Positions 3,936 through 33,062 of a stretch of 33,062 nucleotides of DNA are shown here, in pieces (the first letter of the stretch is position 1; each line of letters opens with the position of its first letter). The stretch comes from a virus. A program made the position numbers and the translations under genes. The notes beneath the pieces were generated by a model. The model was given only the letters and a program-made list of their open reading frames with translations, ran no database searches and was not told the DNA's origin. The stretch covers positions 1-33,062 of the IMG/VR virus record IMGVR_UViG_3300050821_007458; one strand, 5' to 3'.

Positions 3936-4084
3936 AGATTACACGTCTTGAAGACCGCCTACCTGATTTCCGTCGTGAATTGACCTATTCCGAAATGCAG
4001 AAGCGCCTTTTACAGGCTGAAATTGCTATTGCTTCATTAAAGCTGAATATTGAAAGTATGCGGCGTGAAAGAGATGCGGAATGA
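3932..4084 (+). CDS. 50-aa coiled-coil protein of unknown function
   Basis: A short frame starting MKITRLEDRLPDFRREL, almost entirely charged/alpha-helical, with heptad-like Leu/Ile spacing from about residue 25 on (KRLLQAEIAIASLKLNIES). It is linked by ATGA overlaps to the HTH gene before it and to the kinase gene after it, which is strong evidence that it is translated. It could be a small partner of the regulator or just a bridging gene. I recognise no family. Confidence 0.65.
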   Translation: MKITRLEDRLPDFRRELTYSEMQKRLLQAEIAIASLKLNIESMRRERDAE

Positions 4085-5061
4085 TTATTTCTAGGACGCC
4101 ATACCGCATAAGTTTTTTCGGCGGTGGGACTGATTATCCCGCGTGGTATCGTGAACATGGTGGGGCGGTACTTTCTACAACTATCAACAAATATTGTTAT
4201 ATCAGCGCCCGTTATCTTCCGCCATTTTTTGAGCATAAATATCGTATTGTTTGGTCACGGATTGAGAATGTCAAAGAAATTTCTGAAATAAAACACCCAT
4301 CAGTAAGGGTGATTTTGGAGATAATGAACCTACGGCAAGGGGTAGAGATTCATCATGATGGTGATTTGCCGGCGCGGTCTGGTTTAGGCTCAAGCTCTGC
4401 CTTCACCGTGGGGCTTCTTTATGCTCTAAGCTCGTTAATCGGGCAGCATATTTCTAAAGATAAATTGGCTTATCAAGCTATAGATATTGAGCAGAATATC
4501 ATAAAGGAAAATGTCGGTTCACAAGACCAGATTTCTGCGGCTTTTGGCGGATTCAATCAAATAGAATTTTCACAAAATTATGAATTTAAAGTTTCCCCCT
4601 TAGTTCTATCACATGAAAAGGTAAAAGAATTAGAAAGCCATCTAATGCTGGTTTTTACCGGGTTACAACGCAATGCTTCCGAAATTGCCAGTGAACAAAT
4701 TAAAATAATTGATGATAAAGTTTCTGAAATGAAGACAATGCAAGGAATGGTTGGTGAGGCTATAAATATCCTTAAATCTCGGGGTAATATTGATGCTTTT
4801 GGACAACTTTTGCATGAATCTTGGAAGATAAAGCGCACACTTGCTAAAGGGATTTCCAATGATGATATTGATACTCTTTACGAAGGATTACGCAAATCCG
4901 GGGCAATAGGCGGAAAAATGCTTGGAGCGGGTGGAGGAGGATTTATGCTGCTTTTTGTTCCGCCAGAACGGCAACAAAAAATCCGCGAGCTACTCAAAGA
5001 TTTTATCCATGTGCCATTCAAGTTTGAATCTGAAGGGAGTAAGATAATTGTAAATGTTTAA
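4081..5061 (+). CDS. hddA: GHMP kinase, D-glycero-D-manno-heptose 7-phosphate kinase (HddA) type
   Basis: A 326-aa GHMP-family sugar kinase. The first residues (MIISRTPYRISFFGGGTDYP, 1-20) and the ATP loop DLPARSGLGSSSAFTVGLL (95-113) are typical of the HddA/FGGY-unrelated heptose kinases, which phosphorylate C1 of D-glycero-D-manno-heptose 7-phosphate to the 1,7-bisphosphate. KENVGSQDQ (142-150) and the C-terminal GGKMLGAGGGGFMLLFVP (about 276-293, GHMP C-domain) complete the fold. Length matches full-length bacterial enzymes. It is coupled by ATGA to the 50-aa gene and overlaps transketolase by 8 bp. Isomerase and nucleotidyltransferase genes nearby support the heptose substrate, although fucose kinase-like specificity cannot be excluded from sequence alone. 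Confidence 0.9.
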   Translation: MIISRTPYRISFFGGGTDYPAWYREHGGAVLSTTINKYCYISARYLPPFFEHKYRIVWSRIENVKEISEIKHPSVRVILEIMNLRQGVEIHHDGDLPARSGLGSSSAFTVGLLYALSSLIGQHISKDKLAYQAIDIEQNIIKENVGSQDQISAAFGGFNQIEFSQNYEFKVSPLVLSHEKVKELESHLMLVFTGLQRNASEIASEQIKIIDDKVSEMKTMQGMVGEAINILKSRGNIDAFGQLLHESWKIKRTLAKGISNDDIDTLYEGLRKSGAIGGKMLGAGGGGFMLLFVPPERQQKIRELLKDFIHVPFKFESEGSKIIVNV

Positions 5062-5857
5062 AGAACTTGAAGATAAAGCCCGTGCTATACGTGCAACCAT
5101 TATTCAAATGGCACATGATGCCGGAGAAGGGCATCTGCAGGGGGCTTTAAGTTGTGTGGATATTCTCGTAGCACTTTATAATGGATTCTTACGTGAAGAA
5201 CCGAGGGATAGGTTTTATTTCAGCAAGGGACATACAGCAGCGGCTTTATATGCGACTTGGGCTGAAAAGGGCATCATCCCCCGTGAGGAGCTAAAAACCT
5301 ACTGTAAAGCCAATTCTCGGCTTCCTAGCCATCCATCTAAACAGGCCATGCCGTTGCTGGAAGTCAGCTCTGGTAGTTTAGGTATGGGGCTGGGGGTTGC
5401 CGCTGGGGCAGCTTATGGTTTAAAGCTTGATAACAATTCCTCACGCTGCATTGTCCTGATGAGCGATGGGGAATGCAATGAGGGTTCGGTTTGGGAAGCG
5501 GCGATGTTCGCCAAGGCCCAGAAGCTGAATAATTTGATAGCGATTGTGGATAATAATAATATTCAGTCTGTCGGAAAACATGATGAATTGAATGGGAATA
5601 CTTTTTTACGTAAGAAATTTCAGGCATTTGGATGGGACACTTTTTGCTGTAATGGTAATAAAATAAATGATATTCTTTATGTTCTTGGCCATGCAATCAT
5701 CGAGCCAAAATCACCTCTTGCCATAATTGCTAATACCACCGGAGGAAAAGATGTTGATTTCATGGAAAATCAAGTGCTATGGCATTACCGAACACCTTCT
5801 GATGATGATTTGAAACGTGCTCTTGAGCAATTAGGTGCGAGGCCGCTGTATGCGTAA
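5054..5857 (+). CDS. Transketolase, N-terminal (ThDP-pyrophosphate) subunit
   Basis: A 267-aa split-transketolase subunit. Visible ThDP-domain features: GEGHLQGALS (24-33, His27), SKGHTAAALYA (57-67, His60), SSGSLGMGLGVAAGAAYG (105-122), and the metal/diphosphate motif SDGECNEG (137-144) ending in VDNNN (165-169). A Ser replaces the usual first Gly of GDG. Transketolase moves two-carbon units between pentose phosphates and would generate sedoheptulose 7-phosphate, the substrate of the isomerase encoded 1 kb downstream. It overlaps the kinase by 8 bp and the C-subunit gene by 8 bp. The subunit length is normal. A different ketol transfer is possible; the context argues for sedoheptulose supply. 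Confidence 0.9.
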   Translation: MFKELEDKARAIRATIIQMAHDAGEGHLQGALSCVDILVALYNGFLREEPRDRFYFSKGHTAAALYATWAEKGIIPREELKTYCKANSRLPSHPSKQAMPLLEVSSGSLGMGLGVAAGAAYGLKLDNNSSRCIVLMSDGECNEGSVWEAAMFAKAQKLNNLIAIVDNNNIQSVGKHDELNGNTFLRKKFQAFGWDTFCCNGNKINDILYVLGHAIIEPKSPLAIIANTTGGKDVDFMENQVLWHYRTPSDDDLKRALEQLGARPLYA

Positions 5858-6332
5858 AGCCTTTGCAGAGACACTTTTCAAGTTGGCGGAAGCCGACCCG
5901 CGTATTATCTTTTTAACTGGCGATATGGGTTTCGGGACGTTCGATGCCTTCAAGGAAAAGTTTGGTAAACGATATGTCAATGTAGGCGTGGCGGAACAAC
6001 AGCTTATCGCTACTGCCGCTGGTCTTGCATTGGAAGGTTGGAAGCCTGTGTGTTACTCCATTGCCTCATTCCTGACGGCGCGGCCTTTTGAGTTTACCCG
6101 CTTCCTGATAGGGCATCATAATCTTCCGGTAATTCTCGTAGGTGCTGGGGGCGGTTTATATTATGAATCTAGCGGATTTTCTCATCATGCGACAGATGAT
6201 TTTGCGCTTATGAAATTAATACCTAATATGCTGCCAATGGATGTAAATAATGCTGAGGATGTAAGATGGAAATTACCCGAAGCTTTTAACTTAAAACAAC
6301 CAGTCTATATGCGATTAGGGTCAAAGAAATGA
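5850..6332 (+). CDS. Transketolase, C-terminal subunit reduced to the pyrimidine domain
   Basis: A 160-aa protein with the transketolase pyrimidine-binding domain: FLTGDMGFGTFDAFKEKFG (21-39), NVGVAEQQLI (44-53) with the catalytic Glu49 that activates ThDP, and SGFSHHATDD (108-117). The normal partner subunit is about 300 aa; this one stops at the end of the pyrimidine domain (VYMRLGSKK), so the third, C-terminal transketolase domain is missing. The active site is built from the first two domains, so activity is still plausible. I prefer ATG 5850 (GAGG seven bases upstream) over the GTG at 5835. Its TGA overlaps the next ATG, so the truncation is clean, not a frameshift. Confidence 0.87.
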   Translation: MRKAFAETLFKLAEADPRIIFLTGDMGFGTFDAFKEKFGKRYVNVGVAEQQLIATAAGLALEGWKPVCYSIASFLTARPFEFTRFLIGHHNLPVILVGAGGGLYYESSGFSHHATDDFALMKLIPNMLPMDVNNAEDVRWKLPEAFNLKQPVYMRLGSKK

Positions 6333-6901
6333 GAGCAATTATACTTTGTGGGGGATTTGGTACTCGCTTACGTCAAATCACCGGCGAGCAAGTACCAAAA
6401 TGCATGGTCAAAGGTTGGTTTAAACCCGGAACTCGTGAGATTCCTTGGTTGAGAATCGTTATTGACAATCTAAAATCTCAAAGCATAGAGGACATCACTT
6501 TATCCTTGCATTACAAACCAGAGGTATTCACGGATTATTGGGGTGATAAATTAAAATACAAAATAGAACCTGAACCTCTTGGAACTGGGGGTGCGATTAA
6601 AAATTGCCTAGAGGAAAGCGATAAAAATAATCCAATTCTAGTACTCAATGGTGATACCTATGCCAAATGTGATTTTCAGGAAATGCTTGCTATACACAAA
6701 GCACCTTTGACTGTGGCTATTGCTGAAAATGGCGCTGAAAGTGCTGGGGTGTATATTCTAAATCAATCATTATTTTTTAATGCGCCAAGTGGTGCTTTTT
6801 CTTTCGAGGAATTTATTAAAGATAGGAAGAAAAAATATTATATAATACCATTTTTTACTGATATGGGGACACCGGAAGGTTATAAAAAGGCGCAGGTATG
6901 A
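6329..6901 (+). CDS. hddC: Sugar-phosphate nucleotidyltransferase (HddC-like)
   Basis: A 190-aa nucleotidyltransferase of the GT-A-like NTP-transferase fold. Motifs: LCGGFGTRL (6-14, nucleotide loop), VPKCMVKG (22-29, conserved Lys), PLGTGGAIK (83-91), LNGDTY (106-111, metal-binding Asp) and TDMGTPEGY (177-185). It would transfer a nucleotide, most likely GMP, onto D-glycero-alpha-D-manno-heptose 1-phosphate to give GDP-heptose. Nucleotide specificity cannot be read from the sequence. It is shorter than cellular HddC proteins (about 230 aa), with the loss towards the C-terminal half. ATGA overlaps join it to the genes on both sides. Confidence 0.83.
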   Translation: MRAIILCGGFGTRLRQITGEQVPKCMVKGWFKPGTREIPWLRIVIDNLKSQSIEDITLSLHYKPEVFTDYWGDKLKYKIEPEPLGTGGAIKNCLEESDKNNPILVLNGDTYAKCDFQEMLAIHKAPLTVAIAENGAESAGVYILNQSLFFNAPSGAFSFEEFIKDRKKKYYIIPFFTDMGTPEGYKKAQV

Positions 6902-7350
6902 AAGAAGCCAAACGAATTGCTAATATTTGTATTCAAGCCCTGAAAGCAGGAAATAAAATCATGTTTTGTGGCAACGGAGGTAGTGCGGCACAAGCCCAGC
7001 ACCTAGCAGCAGAATTAGTCGGAAAATTAAACTTTGAGAGACCTGCTTTGGCTGCCCTAGCATTAACGACCGATACCTCAATCATAACAGCAATTGGTAA
7101 TGATTATGGTTTTGAGAATGTTTTTTCTCGTCAAATAGAGGCTTTAGGTAAAAAAGGTGATGTACTTATTGGCATTTCTACTTCAGGTCGCTCTTTAAAT
7201 GTAATAAATGCTCTAAAAACTGCTGTTGCAGGAAAAATTAATATCATTGATTTAGAAAGAAAAGGTGAAAATACTCAACAAATTCAGGAATACCAGCTTA
7301 AATTAGGCCATGAATTTTGTTCCATTATCGAAAAGGAAATGTTTGCATGA
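6898..7350 (+). CDS. gmhA: Phosphoheptose (sedoheptulose 7-phosphate) isomerase, compact
   Basis: A 150-aa SIS-domain protein of the GmhA type, converting sedoheptulose 7-phosphate to D-glycero-D-manno-heptose 7-phosphate. Motifs: CGNGGSAAQAQHLAAELVG (24-42; Glu39 corresponds to the catalytic Glu of E. coli GmhA), ERPALAALALTTDTSIITA (47-65), GNDYGFENVFSRQ (67-79), STSGRSLNV (94-102, phosphate loop) and IQE..LKLGHEFCSIIEKEMF (129-149; His138 corresponds to the catalytic His). E. coli GmhA is 192 aa; here the N-terminal helices and part of the C-terminal half are shortened, yet the catalytic residues are retained. It is coupled by ATGA to the nucleotidyltransferase. Confidence 0.92.
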   Translation: MKEAKRIANICIQALKAGNKIMFCGNGGSAAQAQHLAAELVGKLNFERPALAALALTTDTSIITAIGNDYGFENVFSRQIEALGKKGDVLIGISTSGRSLNVINALKTAVAGKINIIDLERKGENTQQIQEYQLKLGHEFCSIIEKEMFA

Positions 7351-7406
7351 TAAAGCAAGATAAAAAACTGGAAGATTTGTCGGGAACCAAAGTAAACCCG
7401 GCATAA
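7347..7406 (+). CDS. 19-aa frame between the isomerase and HNH genes, doubtful
   Basis: The isomerase stop overlaps an ATG (ATGA) that opens MIKQDKKLEDLSGTKVNPA and then stops at 7404-7406. It could be a translation-coupling leader or the remnant of a gene displaced when the HNH gene arrived; cellular heptose clusters often carry a phosphatase (gmhB) that is missing here. Nineteen residues are too few to identify. I list it because every other junction in this operon uses ATGA to enter a real gene. Confidence 0.25.
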   Translation: MIKQDKKLEDLSGTKVNPA

Positions 7407-7411
7407 TAGAT

Positions 7412-7888
7412 ATGGAAACTCTCGAAAAAGGCTTAGCCATCGGTATTGATTTACGAAATGGCTCTTTAAGCAATAAAGATGGTCGCGTGAGAATTTATTG
7501 TCCTCAATTTCCTGGCTCTCACAAATCCGGATTTTGTCTGCGTTCTCGCGTTGTCTGGTGGCTTCATACTGGCGAAATTATTACGGATATGGAGGCAAAT
7601 ATCCACCATGAAAATCATATCCCTTCAGATGACAGGTTCGACAATTTGGAAAAACTTTCTCATGCGGAGCATTCACAATTGCATAATGCCGAACGCAGTG
7701 AAAAGGCCATCTGTATCTCAAAATGCGCTGGTTGTGGTAATGATTTTAAGATTTTACAATGGCGATTAAATCAAGGAAAAGGAAAATATTGTTCTCTAAA
7801 ATGTTATAATAAAAAACCTCGGGAGATTTCACACAAAAAGAATATATCGAAAGGCCTAAAGAGGGCTTATAAGGAAGGTAAAAGATGA
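7412..7888 (+). CDS. HNH endonuclease, homing type, inserted in the sugar operon
   Basis: A 158-aa free-standing HNH protein. The core RSRVVWWLHTGEI (about 44-56), IHHENHIPSDDRFDNLEKLS (64-83) and HAEHSQLHN is the HNH_3 homing pattern, with the His-His pair, the Asn-His-Asp elements and the downstream Asn-Leu. The C-terminal part has a second zinc site (CAGC, YCSLKC at about 109-136) and a basic tail. It is unrelated in function to the sugar genes around it and separates the isomerase from the SDR gene, so it is probably a mobile intruder. Its TGA overlaps the ATG of the SDR gene, preserving operon translation. Confidence 0.87.
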   Translation: METLEKGLAIGIDLRNGSLSNKDGRVRIYCPQFPGSHKSGFCLRSRVVWWLHTGEIITDMEANIHHENHIPSDDRFDNLEKLSHAEHSQLHNAERSEKAICISKCAGCGNDFKILQWRLNQGKGKYCSLKCYNKKPREISHKKNISKGLKRAYKEGKR

Positions 7889-8814
7889 GCAAAATCCTAT
7901 GCTTAGGGGGTGCTGGCTATATCGGCTCTGTTCTTGTTCCTTGTTTGCTTGCCAGTGGCCATGAAGTCACTGTATTGGATAATTTCATGTACGGACAGGC
8001 CAGCTTGAATCATATCTGTATGCACCATAATTTCCATATCAGTCGAGGCGATATTCGTGAACCATCAACCATGATTCCTTTGATGCGTGAAGCTGAGGTT
8101 ATTATTCCTTTGGCGGCTTATGTCGGCGCACCATTATGCGATAAAGACCCTATTGGGGCTAAAACTATCAATTATGATGCGGTGCTAATGATGCTGAAGA
8201 ATGCTTCTAAAGAGCAGCATATTATCATGCCGACAACGAATAGTGCTTATGGCACGTCTGATAATATTTGCACTGAGGAATCGCCCCTTAAACCCATTAG
8301 TACCTATGCCCAGCATAAAATGCAGATAGAAGAACGTCTGATGCAGCATGAAAACGCTATTAGTTTACGTTTAGCAACTGTATTCGGCATGTCCCCCCGT
8401 ATGCGTATAGATTTGCTGATGAATGATTTAACTTACCGGGCGGTGAATGACCGCGCCGTAATCCTATTTGAAAGTCATTTCAAGCGTAATTTTGTGCATG
8501 TAATGGATGTGGCTGGAGCTTTCATACACACCATAGATAAATTTGATAAAATGAAAGGGCAAGTCTATAATTTCGGGCTTTCTGCAGCCAATTTATCCAA
8601 GAAAGAATTATGTGAACGAATTAAATTACAATTGCCAGAATTTACATTCCTAGATGCACCTATTGGCACTGATATTGACCAACGTAATTATGTTGTTTCC
8701 AATGCGAAAATAGAAGCTACCGGCTTTAAAGCTACCATAAGTCTTGAGGAAGGGATTAAAGAGCTTATCAAGGGATTTAAAATGCTTCGTAATACACGAT
8801 ACGGTAATATCTGA
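7885..8814 (+). CDS. NAD(P)-dependent epimerase/dehydratase (extended SDR)
   Basis: A 309-aa extended short-chain dehydrogenase/reductase. The Rossmann loop GGAGYIG is at 8-14, an acidic residue ending strand 2 (Asp32) suggests NAD preference, PLAAYVGAPLCDKDPIGAKT (75-94) is a cofactor/substrate segment typical of nucleotide-sugar epimerases, and the catalytic residues are Ser120 in TTNSAYG plus Tyr141 and Lys145 in YAQHK. It would oxidise, epimerise or dehydrate a nucleotide-activated sugar; position at the end of the heptose cassette suggests GDP-manno-heptose, but the substrate is inference. The start overlaps the HNH stop as ATGA. It is the last gene before a new promoter region. Confidence 0.87.
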   Translation: MSKILCLGGAGYIGSVLVPCLLASGHEVTVLDNFMYGQASLNHICMHHNFHISRGDIREPSTMIPLMREAEVIIPLAAYVGAPLCDKDPIGAKTINYDAVLMMLKNASKEQHIIMPTTNSAYGTSDNICTEESPLKPISTYAQHKMQIEERLMQHENAISLRLATVFGMSPRMRIDLLMNDLTYRAVNDRAVILFESHFKRNFVHVMDVAGAFIHTIDKFDKMKGQVYNFGLSAANLSKKELCERIKLQLPEFTFLDAPIGTDIDQRNYVVSNAKIEATGFKATISLEEGIKELIKGFKMLRNTRYGNI

Positions 8815-8908: not shown

Positions 8909-8942
8909 TCATAATGAAATATTCCCTTTATATTTAGCTTAT

Positions 8943-8986
8943 GGCCGTGCGGTTTGCGCGTCTACGAGCGCGTGGACTGCACGGTC
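8943..8986 (+). ncRNA. 18-bp GC-rich RNA hairpin in the leader of the replication gene
   Basis: GGCCGTGCGGTTTGCGCG (8943-8960) pairs without bulges to 8969-8986 around an 8-base loop (TCTACGAG). Thirteen pairs are Watson-Crick and five are G-U, so the pairing works as plus-strand RNA better than as cruciform DNA. It lies in an AT-rich leader about 15 bases before the ATG at 9001 and has no U-tract, so it is not a simple terminator. Possible roles are an RNase III processing site, translational control of the replication gene or an origin-associated structure. An in-frame ATG at 8941 sits at the base of the stem. Confidence 0.6.
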
Positions 8987-9000
8987 TACCCTTGAGAATT

Positions 9001-9714
9001 ATGCCCGGTTGGATAAAATTACATCGGAAGATTTTGGAATGGGAATGGTATCAATCCCAAAATACCCGCGCTCTTTTTTTTCATCTATTATTATCGGCAA
9101 ATTACGAACCAAGCCGCTACATGGGAATAGATATTCCTATTGGCAGTCTAGTAACAGGCCGCGTTTCATTGTCGGTCGCGCTACGGTTATCAGAGCGTCA
9201 AGTTCGTGTCGCAATAGAGCATCTAAAAAAGTCAGGTGAAGTGACCAGCAGAATATACCAAAAATTTTCAGTTATAACAATAGTTAATTGGAATGAATAT
9301 CAAGGAAATGACCAGCAGAATGACCAGCAAGTGACCAGCAGAATGACCAGCAAACGACCAGCAAGTGACCAGCAAACGACCACATCTAAAGAAGATAAGA
9401 AAGGAAGAAAGGAAGAAAGTAATACCCCCTTACCCCCATGGCTTCCAGTTATTGAATGGGAAGCTTTCAAGGAAATGCGCCGTAAATCAAAAAAATCTAT
9501 GACACCCCATGCTGAGAAACTAGCCATAAAGAAGCTGGAAAACTATCATTTTGAAGGTAAAGACATAAAAGAAATATTAAATTACAATATCTTAAATAAC
9601 TACCAAGGTATTTTTGAACCCAAACCACAAGGAGAGCTTTATGGACAACCAAAACCCTCAAAATGGGGTACAGCAGCCCACGATTATATCGCAAAACATT
9701 CACAGCCAAGCTGA
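9001..9714 (+). CDS. Replisome organizer / replication initiation protein (O-like), with internal iterons
   Basis: A 237-aa protein. The N-terminus MPGWIKLHRKILEWEWYQ, the middle LVTGRVSLSVALRLSERQVRVAIEHLK (winged-helix, about 50-76) and VITIVNWNEYQ (91-101) are typical of phage replication initiators. A polar linker (102-145) is encoded by repeated DNA, and the C-terminal domain WEAFKEMRRKSKKSMTPHAE (153-172) through FEGKDIKEIL...YQGIF is the conserved helicase-loader-contacting module seen at the ends of many such proteins. By lambda O analogy it would bind the iterons inside its own gene and recruit the host helicase through a loader. An open frame extends upstream to an ATG at 8941, but it is read through the hairpin and has no ribosome site, so I use 9001. 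Confidence 0.85.
   Translation: MPGWIKLHRKILEWEWYQSQNTRALFFHLLLSANYEPSRYMGIDIPIGSLVTGRVSLSVALRLSERQVRVAIEHLKKSGEVTSRIYQKFSVITIVNWNEYQGNDQQNDQQVTSRMTSKRPASDQQTTTSKEDKKGRKEESNTPLPPWLPVIEWEAFKEMRRKSKKSMTPHAEKLAIKKLENYHFEGKDIKEILNYNILNNYQGIFEPKPQGELYGQPKPSKWGTAAHDYIAKHSQPS
9310..9382. repeat. Iterons: probable replication origin inside the replication gene
   Basis: The octamer GACCAGCA occurs at 9310, 9322, 9333, 9345, 9356 and 9367, with a truncated GACCA at 9378 and an outlying copy at 9243. Spacing is 11 or 12 bp, about one helical turn, so the sites share a face of DNA. Because spacing is not a multiple of three, the same word is translated in all three frames (Asp-Gln-Gln, Thr-Ser, Arg-Pro-Ala), so selection is on the DNA. 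A purine-rich tract (9386-9420) follows directly. Lambda has the same arrangement: iterons then an AT/purine-rich region within gene O. Confidence 0.82.
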
Positions 9715-10138
9715 TAAGATTAAGCTTGTAAAAGTATTAGCTAGTGTATGTGCTTTGCAAAAGCAATATGGGAAAACCCCTAATGAACTTGAAGCTTTAG
9801 TTGAAGGATTTTCAAGAATACTTAAACATATTCCAATGGATATTATTATTCAAGCAATTGACAAATATTCTTTAAATAACAATGATATACCAACACCTTC
9901 TGATATAAATAAAATCATCAATCCACCTCCTCAAAAAATTGATTGGCCGCTTTACATTGAGCTTAAAAAACGCAGTCGTGAAGGCTATTCCTATATCACT
10001 CGTGAGGAAAAACAATTCATGCGCAATTGCGAGGATATGGCTATTCTTCGGCAGACCCAAGAAATGCAAAACTATCAATCCGCCCAAGCACAGCTTGCTC
10101 GTCCTGATTTTTTAGAACTAACTCATAATTGGGATTGA
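9641..10138 (+). CDS. Replication-associated protein, possible helicase loader (P-like)
   Basis: A 165-aa helical protein overlapping the end of the initiator gene by 74 bp in another frame. The core KLVKVLASVCALQKQYGKTP (about 28-47), an Leu-rich helix, then IPTPSDINKIINPPP (about 83-97) and a W..Y.ELKKRS segment match the pattern of proteins that follow initiators in many phages and are thought to load the replicative helicase. The start ATG at 9641 has AAGGAGAG upstream; the alternative TTG at 9614 does not. No ATPase motif is visible, so it is a P-like, not a DnaC-like, candidate. Assignment rests mainly on position and pattern. Confidence 0.6.
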   Translation: MDNQNPQNGVQQPTIISQNIHSQADKIKLVKVLASVCALQKQYGKTPNELEALVEGFSRILKHIPMDIIIQAIDKYSLNNNDIPTPSDINKIINPPPQKIDWPLYIELKKRSREGYSYITREEKQFMRNCEDMAILRQTQEMQNYQSAQAQLARPDFLELTHNWD

Positions 10139-10142
10139 TGAC

Positions 10143-10233
10143 AGCCCAAGCCGGTTAGTGGGCTAAAACACCGGCAGCCTAAGCGATAGGTTTTATCGTG
10201 CACAAGCGGTAGTCCTTCCTGTTGTGATTAGGC
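10143..10233 (+). ncRNA. Structured RNA candidate: H-type pseudoknot plus three-way junction
   Basis: In a 145-base gap without a gene. Pseudoknot: AGCCC (10143-10147) pairs with GGGCT (10160-10164), and GCCGGT (10150-10155) pairs with ACCGGC (10170-10175); loops are 2, 4 and 5 bases. One base later, GCCTAA (10177-10182) pairs with TTAGGC (10228-10233) and encloses two hairpins, GCGATA/TATCGT (10183-10199) and CACAA/TTGTG (10201-10226). The second hairpin loop contains TCCTTCC. All pairs are mutually compatible. It could be a riboswitch-like element or small RNA; no known class matches what I remember. Confidence 0.4.
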
Positions 10234-10235
10234 GC

Positions 10236-10264
10236 TTGACAAGAGTATAAAAAACTCATAATGA
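10236..10264 (+). promoter_or_regulatory. Promoter candidate upstream of the glycosyltransferase gene
   Basis: TTGACA (10236-10241) is a perfect -35. The best -10 at 17-bp spacing is TAATGA (10259-10264); CATAAT at 10257 has 15-bp spacing. A small GAGT/ACTC dyad lies between. The GGAGAG ribosome site and ATG at 10284 follow. The -35 overlaps the edge of the RNA structure, which would therefore not be in this transcript. Confidence 0.42.
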
Positions 10265-10283
10265 TTTTATATCGGAGAGTATA

Positions 10284-11189
10284 ATGTCTGAAAAACCTGT
10301 TGAATCCCCCCCCCAAGCTATTCTTCCTAAACCAACCACCATTGGCCTTTATGTCCCTACCAGAGGCCGTTCGCAACTTTGTATGTCTTCCCTCAATGCT
10401 TGGGCGCAGATGTGTGCTGATGCCGCCAATGTGAAATTTCTTATTGGGGTTGATGGCGATGACCCCGATGCAGATAAATTCATCCCCGTTAATTCTTTGG
10501 AAGTCCTGAAATTTGATGAAAGTATTATTACTTGCGGTGGCAGGCTAAAGCTGATGGCCGAAAGTATGGACGTAGATATTTATCTCGCTATGAATGATAA
10601 ATATTTCCCTTTGACACAAGGCTGGGATAATATCTTACGGCAGATAATGACCCAAACAGGTGCAGAAATAGTTGCCTTCACCTACATACCAGCTCCTAAT
10701 GCTTTTCATACTACCGCTTGTACGAAACGCTGGATAGAACTTGCAAACAAATATGAACCCACCATGTTTCCCTTTTGGTTTTCCGACCAATGGCGCATTG
10801 AAACGCATTGTTACGTGTTCAATCGTGCGCCGCAAATTATCCCTCAACTTCAGGTAGGCGGCCAGCAGCATAATACCCAGCATATGCGCGAGATGGATTT
10901 CTGGTGGGGGTTGTTTACTGCTTTGAGGCCGCGCCGTTTACGTGAGGCCTATGAAATTTACAAAGGTTATGGTCTGACTGCGCCTACTTTCGAGGAATTT
11001 GTAGCGGCTCGCCGTGGGTGGATTGATGATTTCATGCTGGTTGACATCGCCAAACGCAAGCAATTACCGGGTTACGAAATAATGACCGGCGATAAAACGT
11101 TACCAGGCGATAAATACATGCACTCACGTATTGCGGCTGATAAAATGATTGCAGAACAAAATCTTATTCTTTGGGAAGCAAAAATATGA
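10284..11189 (+). CDS. Glycosyltransferase-like protein, GT-A type
   Basis: A 301-aa protein with the N-terminal pattern of GT-A glycosyltransferases: IGLYVPTRGRSQLC (20-33, nucleotide-sugar strand/loop), FLIGVDGDDPDAD (52-64) and IYLAMNDKYFPLTQGWDN (99-116), where the usual DDD/DXD is replaced by MND; then FWFSDQWRIE (164-173) and EMDFWWGLF. It would move a sugar from a nucleotide donor to an acceptor. With a nucleotide-heptose pathway in the same genome, a heptosyl donor is an attractive inference. Acceptor unknown: DNA, virion protein or host envelope are all possible. It begins its own unit (GGAGAG before ATG) and is coupled by ATGA to the RyR gene. Confidence 0.68.
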   Translation: MSEKPVESPPQAILPKPTTIGLYVPTRGRSQLCMSSLNAWAQMCADAANVKFLIGVDGDDPDADKFIPVNSLEVLKFDESIITCGGRLKLMAESMDVDIYLAMNDKYFPLTQGWDNILRQIMTQTGAEIVAFTYIPAPNAFHTTACTKRWIELANKYEPTMFPFWFSDQWRIETHCYVFNRAPQIIPQLQVGGQQHNTQHMREMDFWWGLFTALRPRRLREAYEIYKGYGLTAPTFEEFVAARRGWIDDFMLVDIAKRKQLPGYEIMTGDKTLPGDKYMHSRIAADKMIAEQNLILWEAKI

Positions 11190-11536
11190 ATGATACCGAA
11201 ATCGCGCAAATCGCCTATGAAGCCATTAGAAATTATTGCATTGTAAGCGATGATGGCCTTAAGCATACGCCATGGGATGAATCGCCGGAATGGGTAAAAA
11301 CTTCATTTACGGCAGGCGTCAGATGGCTTCGCCTACATCCAAAAGCATTATCGCTATTTTCCGCTGATAATCACAATCACTGGCTCAATGACCGAAAATC
11401 AAAAGGCTGGAAATGGGGTGAAATAAAAGATATTTCCAAAAAAGAGAACCCATGCATTGTGCCTTATGATGAACTTCCGCCCTACCAAGTGAAAAAAGAT
11501 AATCTGTTTAAAGCAATTGTGGGTATTTTGAATTAA
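11186..11536 (+). CDS. RyR-domain protein
   Basis: A 116-aa protein matching the RyR (ryanodine receptor repeat) domain found as a single copy in many phages and bacteria: IAYEAIRNYCIVSDDG (about 8-23), PWDESPEWVKTSFTAGVRW (29-47), NHNHWLNDRKSKGWKWGEIKD (about 61-81) and PCIVPYDELPPYQVKKDNLF (about 88-107), the last being the most conserved stretch. Function in phages is unknown; the domain is thought to bind ligands or nucleic-acid-linked molecules. The ATG at 11186 overlaps the glycosyltransferase stop as ATGA; the TTG at 11171 is a less likely start. Translational coupling suggests the two proteins are needed together. Confidence 0.85.
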   Translation: MNDTEIAQIAYEAIRNYCIVSDDGLKHTPWDESPEWVKTSFTAGVRWLRLHPKALSLFSADNHNHWLNDRKSKGWKWGEIKDISKKENPCIVPYDELPPYQVKKDNLFKAIVGILN

Positions 11537-24841: not shown

Positions 24842-25288
24842 ATGCATATTAAATTTATCAAAACCACGGAACATATTGAACAAGCTTGGGAATTGCTTGA
24901 AATGCATCGTGAAGAATTAGCTACTTATAAGCATTTGATGGTTTTGAAGCCTGATGTAACAGCCTATAAGAGACTTGAGGATGCTGGAAAGCTTTTAGGT
25001 ATAGGGCTTTTTGATGGGGATAAAATCGTTGGATATTCCATTTTCATTCTAACTCATGCTTTGCATTATGCTGACCTAACAATGGCACAAAATGATATTC
25101 TTTATGTGCATCCTGATTATCGTAAAACCAAATGGGGAATGCGATTAATTAAGAGCAGTGAAGAAGCCATAAAAGAGCGTGGAATCAAAATGATTACATG
25201 GCATGGCAAGGAAAAAACTAATTTCTCCGAATTGATGCCAAAGCTCGGCTATATCGTTCAAGATATTCTTTTTAGTAAGGAATTATAA
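24842..25288 (+). CDS. GNAT-fold protein in the P22 gene-14 position
   Basis: A 148-aa protein with GNAT acyltransferase pattern: beta-strand followed by LLGIGLFDGDKIVGYSIFI (about 51-69), QNDILYVHPDYRKTKWGMRLIK (82-103), where the Arg-x-x-x-x-Gly resembles the acetyl-CoA pyrophosphate loop, and ITWHGKEKTNFSELMPKLGY. Several podoviruses carry a GNAT-like protein just before their ejection proteins, where it may be a virion assembly protein and not an enzyme. Location between the gp10/needle genes and the ejection genes matches P22 gp14. Activity is not proven. The ATG shares the region of the lipoprotein promoter and lacks a clear ribosome site. Confidence 0.75.
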   Translation: MHIKFIKTTEHIEQAWELLEMHREELATYKHLMVLKPDVTAYKRLEDAGKLLGIGLFDGDKIVGYSIFILTHALHYADLTMAQNDILYVHPDYRKTKWGMRLIKSSEEAIKERGIKMITWHGKEKTNFSELMPKLGYIVQDILFSKEL

Positions 25289-31451: not shown

Positions 31452-33062
31452 TGACCGAACAATTTGCCAATTTCGCCCAAGGCGTTCTGGCCGCACCGAT
31501 TACGGCTGCGCAAACCACTATTTCCATCACGCCGACGGATTATACGGGACGGCCAGCCCCCTCTAATTTCCCCTCACAAGGCAATTTCCGCATTACTGTT
31601 CAATCCTTCGACGTAACAACACAAATTCCAACGTCAGCGCCGGAAATAATGTTGGTGACTTCGGTAGCAGGAAATACCTTTACCGTTCAACGTGGTGCAG
31701 AAAGTAGTACAGCAATCGCCTTTGCCTCTGGTGCACAAGTAATACACATTGCTACGGCAGCAGTTATGACAGCACTTAGCGGCGGTACATCACCTTTAAC
31801 TACTAAAGGTGATGTATATGGATTTTCCACAGTTGCTGCGCGTGTTCCAGTAGGTGCGGACGGAACAGTTTTAACCGCAGATTCAACGCAGCCTACAGGA
31901 TTAAAATATGCGGCAACAAGTGGCACTGGAACAGTTACCACCGTTTCTGTGGCAACAGCCAATGGATTTTCTGGCACAGTAGCGAATGCCACTACCACAC
32001 CAGCCATCACTGTTCAAACCAGCGTAACAGGAATACCCGTAGGCAATGGCACTGCTTTTTCTGCCTCTAATGTAACCAATAATGCTCAAACTAAGGCCGC
32101 CATAGTTCCGAATACGGCTCCTTCATCTGGACAAATTTTAGTAGGAAACGCGGGTGGGACAGCTTACGCCCCACAAACAGCCTCAGGTGATTTAACAATA
32201 GATAGCTCGGGGGCGCATACTCTTGCTACAGTCAATTCCAACGTTGGGACATTCAACGGCACTACAGCCAATGGCAAAGGCCTGATTACTGCTATAGCCC
32301 CGCTTGGTAGATTAAAGGCTGTTCGAGCCGCAACTACTGGAGATTTGGGCGGAACCTATAACAATGGGGCTTCCGGAGTTGGCGCGACTATAACCAATTC
32401 AGGTGCGCAGGTGACGCTTTCTATTGATAGTGTGAATTTATTTGTAGGTGACAGGATATGTGTTAAAAATCAGGGGACTGCTTTTCAGAATGGTATTTAT
32501 TCTGTAACAAATGCTGGTAGCGGTTCTACCAATTGGGTGATTACCCGAAGCTCTGATTATGATAATTCAACCGCAGGTTCGATATTTGAAGGCACAGAGA
32601 CAGTAGTTTCCGAGGGAACTACGAATGCCGGTGTGCTTTGCATTATGACAACGCAAGGCGCAATTACAGTCGGGTCAACGGGGTTAATTTGGATAGTAAA
32701 TTCCGCAGGCAGTATCGCCGGTGGTTATGCTGCCTCGGTTTCAAATTCAGATGGTACACTGACCATTAGCCCGACAACCGGTGCCGTGGTGGCCTCAATT
32801 GCCTTGGGGCACCCAAATTCATGGTCGGGCCAGCAAACATTTACTAACCCTATTGTCGGGACGCAGTCATCATCGGACAACAGCACTAAAGGGGCATCAA
32901 CCGCATATGTCACCACAGCAGTAAATAATGCTATAGCAGGGGTAAACCCTGCCGTGGCCGTACAATATGCCACAGTAGCCGCGGGGGACACCAGTGCCCT
33001 GACTTATAGCAATGGCGTCTCCGGTGTGGGTGCTACATTAACGGGGGCAAACAACACGGCTA
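31448..33062 (+). CDS. Tail fibre protein, repeated modules (3'-truncated by window end)
   Basis: An open frame runs from ATG 31448 (ATGA overlap with the previous stop; AGGA upstream) to the end of the window, at least 538 codons. It begins MMTEQFANFAQGVLAAPI. Typical fibre motifs: SPLTTKGDVYGFSTVAARVP (about 115-134), TVTTVSVATANGF and NSTKGASTAYVTTAVNNAI. A module beginning VRAATTGDLGGTYNNGASGV and running to GLIWIV (about 293-420) has a second copy starting AVQYATVAAGDTSAL near the end, cut by the window. The repeated GVGAT...VKNQ...QNGIYSVT pattern occurs widely in podovirus and siphovirus fibres. Stop and C-terminus are unseen. Confidence 0.88.
   Translation, partial: MMTEQFANFAQGVLAAPITAAQTTISITPTDYTGRPAPSNFPSQGNFRITVQSFDVTTQIPTSAPEIMLVTSVAGNTFTVQRGAESSTAIAFASGAQVIHIATAAVMTALSGGTSPLTTKGDVYGFSTVAARVPVGADGTVLTADSTQPTGLKYAATSGTGTVTTVSVATANGFSGTVANATTTPAITVQTSVTGIPVGNGTAFSASNVTNNAQTKAAIVPNTAPSSGQILVGNAGGTAYAPQTASGDLTIDSSGAHTLATVNSNVGTFNGTTANGKGLITAIAPLGRLKAVRAATTGDLGGTYNNGASGVGATITNSGAQVTLSIDSVNLFVGDRICVKNQGTAFQNGIYSVTNAGSGSTNWVITRSSDYDNSTAGSIFEGTETVVSEGTTNAGVLCIMTTQGAITVGSTGLIWIVNSAGSIAGGYAASVSNSDGTLTISPTTGAVVASIALGHPNSWSGQQTFTNPIVGTQSSSDNSTKGASTAYVTTAVNNAIAGVNPAVAVQYATVAAGDTSALTYSNGVSGVGATLTGANNTA
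31786..31816. repeat. 13-bp perfect inverted repeat inside the fibre gene
   Basis: TACATCACCTTTA (31786-31798) and TAAAGGTGATGTA (31804-31816) form a perfect dyad around ACTAC. It encodes the conserved SPLTTKGDVY segment of the fibre. There is no T-run, so it is not a terminator. It may be a recombination focus for fibre exchange or a by-product of codon use on the conserved motif. Confidence 0.7.

Follow-up and report, generated by a model that had tools for sequence, protein, structure and literature searches.

The stretch of DNA analyzed here (the window) is a 33,062-base IMG/VR entry of the linear class, with its final ORF open at position 33062. Judged by its portal (phrog_156), coat (phrog_283), and head closure (phrog_578) genes, the phage looks like a P22-like podophage. 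The gene under study is an unbroken ORF with an ATG start, predicted to encode a glycosyltransferase (GT) of 301 aa (Table 1). The original prediction, made from the sequence, had recognized in it the motifs PTRGR, GVDGDD, and MND, all of which are present in the intact frame (aa 25-29, 55-60, and 103-105, respectively). It had also placed the gene about 1.5 kb past a sugar cassette and beyond replication genes, which agrees with the 1.47 kb between the end of the cassette (8814) and the GT start (10284) and with the two replication-type ORFs that lie in this interval.

Table 1. Features of the sugar cassette and of the glycosyltransferase region (window coordinates).
Feature	Position	Strand	Evidence or remark
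HddA-like GHMP (heptose-7-phosphate) kinase	4081..5061	+	Pfam; NCBIfam NF049969 E 2e-46, below curated cut-off
Transketolase N-terminal half (ThDP domain)	5054..5857	+	Pfam PF00456 E 2.6e-29
Transketolase pyrimidine-binding half	5835..6332	+	Pfam PF02779 E 1.1e-25
HddC-like nucleotidyltransferase, 190 aa	6329..6901	+	Pfam PF00483; NCBIfam NF049965 E 3.6e-29, below cut-off
GmhA-like SIS isomerase, 150 aa	6898..7350	+	Pfam SIS_2; NCBIfam PRK13936/TIGR00441 below cut-off
HNH endonuclease, inside cassette, before epimerase	7412-7888		
NAD-dependent epimerase/dehydratase (SDR)	7885..8814	+	Pfam PF01370 E 8.9e-27; 56.6% identity to SDR of bacterial locus L359
DnaD-like helicase loader	8941-9714		phrog_2514, E 2e-29
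Replication-type ORF	9614-10138		
Promoter-like site TTGACA-18-AATGAT, directly 5' of GT	10236..10265	+	Consensus match only
GT-A (GT2-like) glycosyltransferase, 301 aa	10284..11189	+	ORF, phrog_14945, family alignment, AlphaFold, Foldseek
C9 run near GT 5' end	10306..10314	+	Slip of 1-2 bases gives stop at 14-50 aa
RyR-domain protein	11186..11536	+	Pfam RyR E 2.4e-9; RyDEP structure 35tm E 1.8e-6

Consensus matching found 33 promoter-like sites in the region where 25.9 were expected, a background against which the site directly before the GT gene has to be read. The intergenic stretch that contains it (10139-10283) has predicted hairpins with an RNA fold z of only -1.8, and an Rfam search over the whole window, this stretch included, returned zero matches. 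The C9 run is the longest G/C run in the window, but a run of this kind would arise somewhere in the window with a chance of 8-16%, and it is not shared by the GT relatives in which it was looked for; we therefore treat phase variation at this site as a curiosity only. Far downstream, a GNAT-type acetyltransferase gene (24842-25288) sits amid tail-end structural genes.

In the cassette, transketolase is encoded by two overlapping genes (5054-6332) with no C-terminal domain detected, and a comparable split pair recurs near the GT family in both viruses and bacteria. The cassette nucleotidyltransferase and isomerase are short. No phosphatase of the GmhB type turned up in the window ORFs that were scanned, and a heptose pathway would thus need a host step. 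The same ORFs yielded no other GT-like family; since the record is a linear fragment whose last ORF is open, a second GT may lie out of view.

The gene product is almost certainly a GT-A transferase, as the original prediction had suggested. The window protein matches the PHROGs profile phrog_14945, annotated "glycosyltransferase," over aa 18-171 (E 2.9e-5). Pfam and NCBIfam gave no match, PF00535 (the GT2 sequence family) included, leaving phrog_14945 as the sole library model that recognizes the protein. AlphaFold gave a pLDDT of 34 from the single sequence and, from a 61-sequence alignment, a confident GT-A (Rossmann-like) fold (pLDDT 93.1, pTM 0.88). The comparison with GT-A families that had been proposed as a check likewise placed the fold in GT-A, close to GT2: top Foldseek matches in the PDB, at the E ~1e-8 level (2e-8 to 1e-7; TM ~0.5), were PcManGT (a mannosyltransferase), WrtF (GDP-fucose), and TarP (UDP-GlcNAc), and GT2 proteins of phages and giant viruses were matched as well. 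The family profile, compared with GT2 structures, matched DPMS (5mlz) at E 2e-4 and SpsA weakly (E 0.066). The classical heptosyltransferases WaaC and WaaF belong to GT9 and have a GT-B fold; the fold predicted for the window protein is GT-A.

Relatives were out of reach of single-sequence searches, whether by tblastn against 50,697 phage records (E 0.01) or against viral contigs and plasmids, all of which returned nothing. A degenerate pattern, FP[FY]W[FW]xDxW, designed from the window sequence after aligning distant relatives, found at least 120 viral loci, and 111 of the 120 matches listed encode GT relatives. The closest among these, L205, is 39% identical over its full length (E 1e-74). 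In a set of 61 family members, phrog_14945 is matched by 53 and PF00535 by eight. Conserved residues kept in the window protein comprise R27/R29, D57/D59/D60, D98, D105, D115, and D168, together with a set of the family's own, T198-R202-W207-R218; the search pattern biases the FPxW..D.W columns of the alignment, and R27, D57, D59, D60, D98, D105, D115, T198, R202, W207, and R218 are conserved outside this selection. We predict with good confidence that the enzyme is catalytically active. A bacterial genome scan added 24 family loci, mainly in Rhodospirillales and other Alphaproteobacteria, Verrucomicrobia, Patescibacteria, and Burkholderiales. The family is thus large, phage-enriched, and uncurated, and curated libraries barely cover it. 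Tandem GT gene pairs occur in L159, L137, L149, and L178, the L159 pair directly after a coat gene.

Co-occurrence of the GT with heptose genes had been proposed as a test of whether the two belong together, with GT-bearing relatives in which the heptose genes are always missing as the outcome that would speak against it. That outcome was not what we found: among the matches listed, 28 of 111 viral family loci have heptose-type core genes nearby, compared with 0 of 129 controls (Fisher p 5e-11), the controls being 51 terminase-relative loci, 69 loci of distant GTs, and nine pattern matches without a GT. By gene, the same 111 loci gave an HldE-like fused nucleotidyltransferase/kinase in 25, a GmhA-like isomerase in 18, and transketolase halves in 11. 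The association holds only in part, however, because most of it comes from one clade. On a tree made by a quick method, the HldE/GmhA association required three changes and amounts to essentially one clade plus the window, and this clustering means that the viral loci are not independent. In the half of the tree that contains the window, transketolase halves turn up on separate branches (L159, L169/L235, and L196). The window groups with L205 with full support, and the deeper placement of the pair is unsure because a long branch, L244, joins there. In L201 and L185, the genes run in the order GT, HldE, GmhA, E1-like, transketolase-pyr, and radical SAM, with a few small or unrelated ORFs between, and from this arrangement the run reads as one operon. 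Full-contig searches detected SIS or transketolase genes in several further family contigs; these whole-record PF13580/PF02779 counts are lower bounds, as is clear from the L159 contig, whose transketolase half escaped PF02779. Roughly three in four viral GT loci among the matches listed, many of them fragments, show no core gene, and the 41.4-kb contig of the sister L205 yielded no SIS, transketolase, GHMP, or HldE gene.

Seen from the kinase side, the link is sparse: of the 80 viral loci to which the HddA-like kinase led, four match the GT profile, and counted by whole record the figure is four of 48. Three of these matches are weak, and the only strong one, in the phage with the closest heptose kinase (L265), is to a GT of the distant EHxHP type and was therefore rejected as an instance of family co-occurrence. 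A podophage-like contig (L266) carries a kinase, nucleotidyltransferase, and isomerase 57, 47, and 56% identical, respectively, to those of the window cassette, along with DegT, GDP-mannose-dehydratase-like, and split E1/transketolase genes, and has no match to the window GT family. The nearest terminase relative of the window phage (L002, 74%) has neither the GT nor the cassette, and the closest terminase relatives lack both. The coupling between GT and heptose genes is optional.

In bacteria, an HddA-like kinase lies within ~10 kb of the GT in 4 of 24 family loci (57.6% identical to the window kinase in L367, 52.3% in L361, 52.0% in L358, and 46.0% in L359, the last of which also carries an SDR 56.6% identical to that of the window), and split transketolase halves lie near the GT in eight of the 24. 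These loci resemble polysaccharide clusters, where GTs of every sort are expected close to sugar genes, so that adjacency in itself does not identify a donor. The part that may be informative is the repeated presence of the HddA-like kinase and the split transketolase among these 24 loci. A Pfam tally of the bacterial neighbors was dropped, as simple ORF calling picked antisense frames in the GC-rich loci.

The other neighbor of the GT points in a different direction. The proposed translational coupling to a RyR-domain protein is borne out by the ATG of that gene at 11186, which overlaps the GT stop codon (ATGA, 11186-11189), and by the Pfam RyR match of its product. A preprint of May 2026 reports that RyDEP, a glycosidase of phage origin, cleaves 2' and 3' cADPR and that other phage RyR proteins act as sponges, and gives roles for RyDEP ligand-contact residues including H75, W78, H100, and D117 (PMC13232231). 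When mapped by hand through motif spacing, three of these four residues, H75, W78, and D117, are kept in the window RyR protein as H63, W66, and D105, and H100 is replaced by Asn (N88). Among the matches listed, no RyR gene lies near a GT relative. By its sequence, the RyR gene linked to the GT probably serves counter-defense in an anti-Thoeris-like manner, which makes a single unit of GT and cassette less likely.

Glycosyltransferases of phages modify host surfaces, virions, or DNA, and which donor they use is seldom known. We propose that the window enzyme, a soluble GT-A protein of GT2-like type, would take a single sugar from a nucleotide donor and pass it to an acceptor. The donor would be an activated heptose-type sugar, probably GDP-linked, supplied by the cassette (4081-8814), and the acceptor would most likely be a host surface glycan and less likely a virion protein. 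Given the family's gene neighbors, the cassette product ranks first among the candidate donors, by a narrow margin over a common host donor, and we make this assignment tentatively, as a case slightly short of even. The original prediction proposed that cassette and transferase together would form a complete sugar-modification system. In its favor are the GT-A fold and the co-occurrence with heptose genes in viruses and bacteria, but the clustered viral signal, the lack of core genes in L205, and the four of 48 records on the kinase side keep it from standing as a whole.

GT and cassette are not obviously a single unit, given the replication genes and the promoter-like site between them. These two features also fit what we consider a serious contender, though one that remains somewhat less than probable, namely that GT and RyR genes form an independent insert (a moron) with its own promoter, that the GT takes its donor from the common nucleotide sugars of the host, and that it has no functional tie to the cassette; it might then change the host surface, for instance to fend off superinfection. 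The ATGA overlap with a gene resembling an anti-Thoeris protein (PMC13232231) and the sister L205, in which the GT occupies a similar place after the replication genes and no heptose-core gene was found, argue for such an insert. What speaks against it is that the family recurs, in viruses as well as bacteria, next to the same HddA-like kinase and to transketolase halves. It is improbable, by comparison, that the GT uses a cassette product that is a branched or higher-carbon sugar, to which the split transketolase-like pair would have added a two-carbon unit. Split ThDP enzymes are known to transfer two-carbon units onto sugars in the case of avilamycin. Of the three transketolase domains, the window halves show the ThDP and pyrimidine-binding ones but not the third, and in relatives E1-like or transketolase halves neighbor genes for DegT aminotransferases, radical SAM enzymes, and SDRs. 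On the other side, the cassette's kinase (HddA-like) and isomerase (GmhA-like) fit the conversion of sedoheptulose-7-phosphate to a heptose.

Regarding the acceptor, the case for the host surface is about evenly balanced, and it is made by analogy with phage seroconversion and with pelagimyophages, whose rfaE and GT genes have been read as serving O-chain modification (PMC7029224). Virion proteins come next, as a rather unlikely candidate, since several GT relatives sit among portal, coat, and tail genes and since mycobacteriophage virions are glycosylated (Freeman et al., 2023, as cited in PMC12619734). Glycosylation of modified bases in the phage DNA is very improbable: GTs of other phages act in this way (Pyle et al., 2024, as cited in PMC12619734) and the structural match at Foldseek rank 20 is a TET-associated GT of phage phiRSL1, but the scanned ORFs of the window yielded no enzyme for base hypermodification (hydroxymethylase, TET/JBP).

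The metal-binding motif bears on whether the enzyme works at all. The family motif is x-D-D, and the window sequence N104-D105-K106 retains the first Asp and has Lys at the second. The earlier statement that DXD is replaced by MND thus holds for the second Asp; the first, D105, is conserved in 72 of 73 homologs, and the idea that both Asp residues had been lost was discarded. Position 106 is Asp in 55, Tyr in 11, and Arg in six of the 73 aligned homologs, Lys in the window GT, and Tyr in its sister L205. Because D105 is nearly invariant and position 106 is variable in the family, MND is, as judged from the alignment, a lineage variant rather than an indication that the enzyme is broken. In GT2 structures the second Asp is a metal ligand, and since Lys stands in for it here, the K106 line may be metal-independent or may bind the metal differently. 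That the GT is a degenerate, non-catalytic relative is highly unlikely: the residues common at position 106 in the 73 homologs do not include Lys, but roughly one family member in four has Tyr or Arg there, the remaining family residues are retained along with D105, and the reading frame is unbroken.

On a bolder reading, the FP[FY]W[FW]xDxW family could be a dedicated line for heptose-type or transketolase-derived sugars, carried with donor pathways that are not homologous to each other (one viral clade having HldE/GmhA, and the window and, partly, bacteria having HddA/HddC/GmhA plus split transketolase) and with metal-independent K/R/Y-106 lines. We regard this as rather unlikely; were it true, phages would install an uncommon sugar of their own making. 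With an apparent donor pathway and a transferase in the same phage, donor use can be tested directly with few purified enzymes. A single short motif now suffices to find the family, which is repeatedly met next to heptose-type genes, viral and bacterial alike.

Phages that combine heptose genes with GTs are already known (Cr30, SynMITS9220M01, and pelagimyophages), and phage GT2 proteins are common; a limited literature search found no description of a link between this GT family and heptose-type or transketolase genes. Caulobacter phage Cr30 and Synechococcus phage SynMITS9220M01 have, like the window, a heptose kinase and GmhA with a GT nearby, and these GTs have no detectable similarity to the window GT. 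The phrog_14945 kin (Streptomyces phage Comrade gp78, Arthrobacter phage Atuin gp170, Actinoplanes phage phiAsp2 Pas34, and Pelagibacter phage HTVC008M) share with it the N-terminal PTRxR, VDxDDP, x-D-D, and GWD motifs, and in Comrade and Atuin the GT gene adjoins a second GT and a nucleotidyltransferase. They are shorter, however (~220 vs. 301 aa), the profile match is weak, and they have EHxHP..AGKA where the window's family has T198-x3-R202-x4-W207; in an alignment with 44 distant relatives from viral contigs, the window reads GGQQHNTQHM at this place. PcManGT (6yv7), the fucosyltransferase WrtF (9omn), TarP (6h21), SpsA, and DPMS share the GT-A core by Foldseek, with the weak profile match to DPMS, but identity is ~10%, Lys takes the place of the second metal-motif Asp in the window, and the C-terminal part differs. 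Further parallels are the operons of L201, L185, L146, L174, and L197, on larger environmental phage contigs, which combine the same GT family with HldE-like, GmhA-like, and split E1/transketolase genes. Their kinase and nucleotidyltransferase families are unlike the HddA-like and HddC-like enzymes of the window, and their GT gene lies inside the operon, whereas in the window it stands apart.
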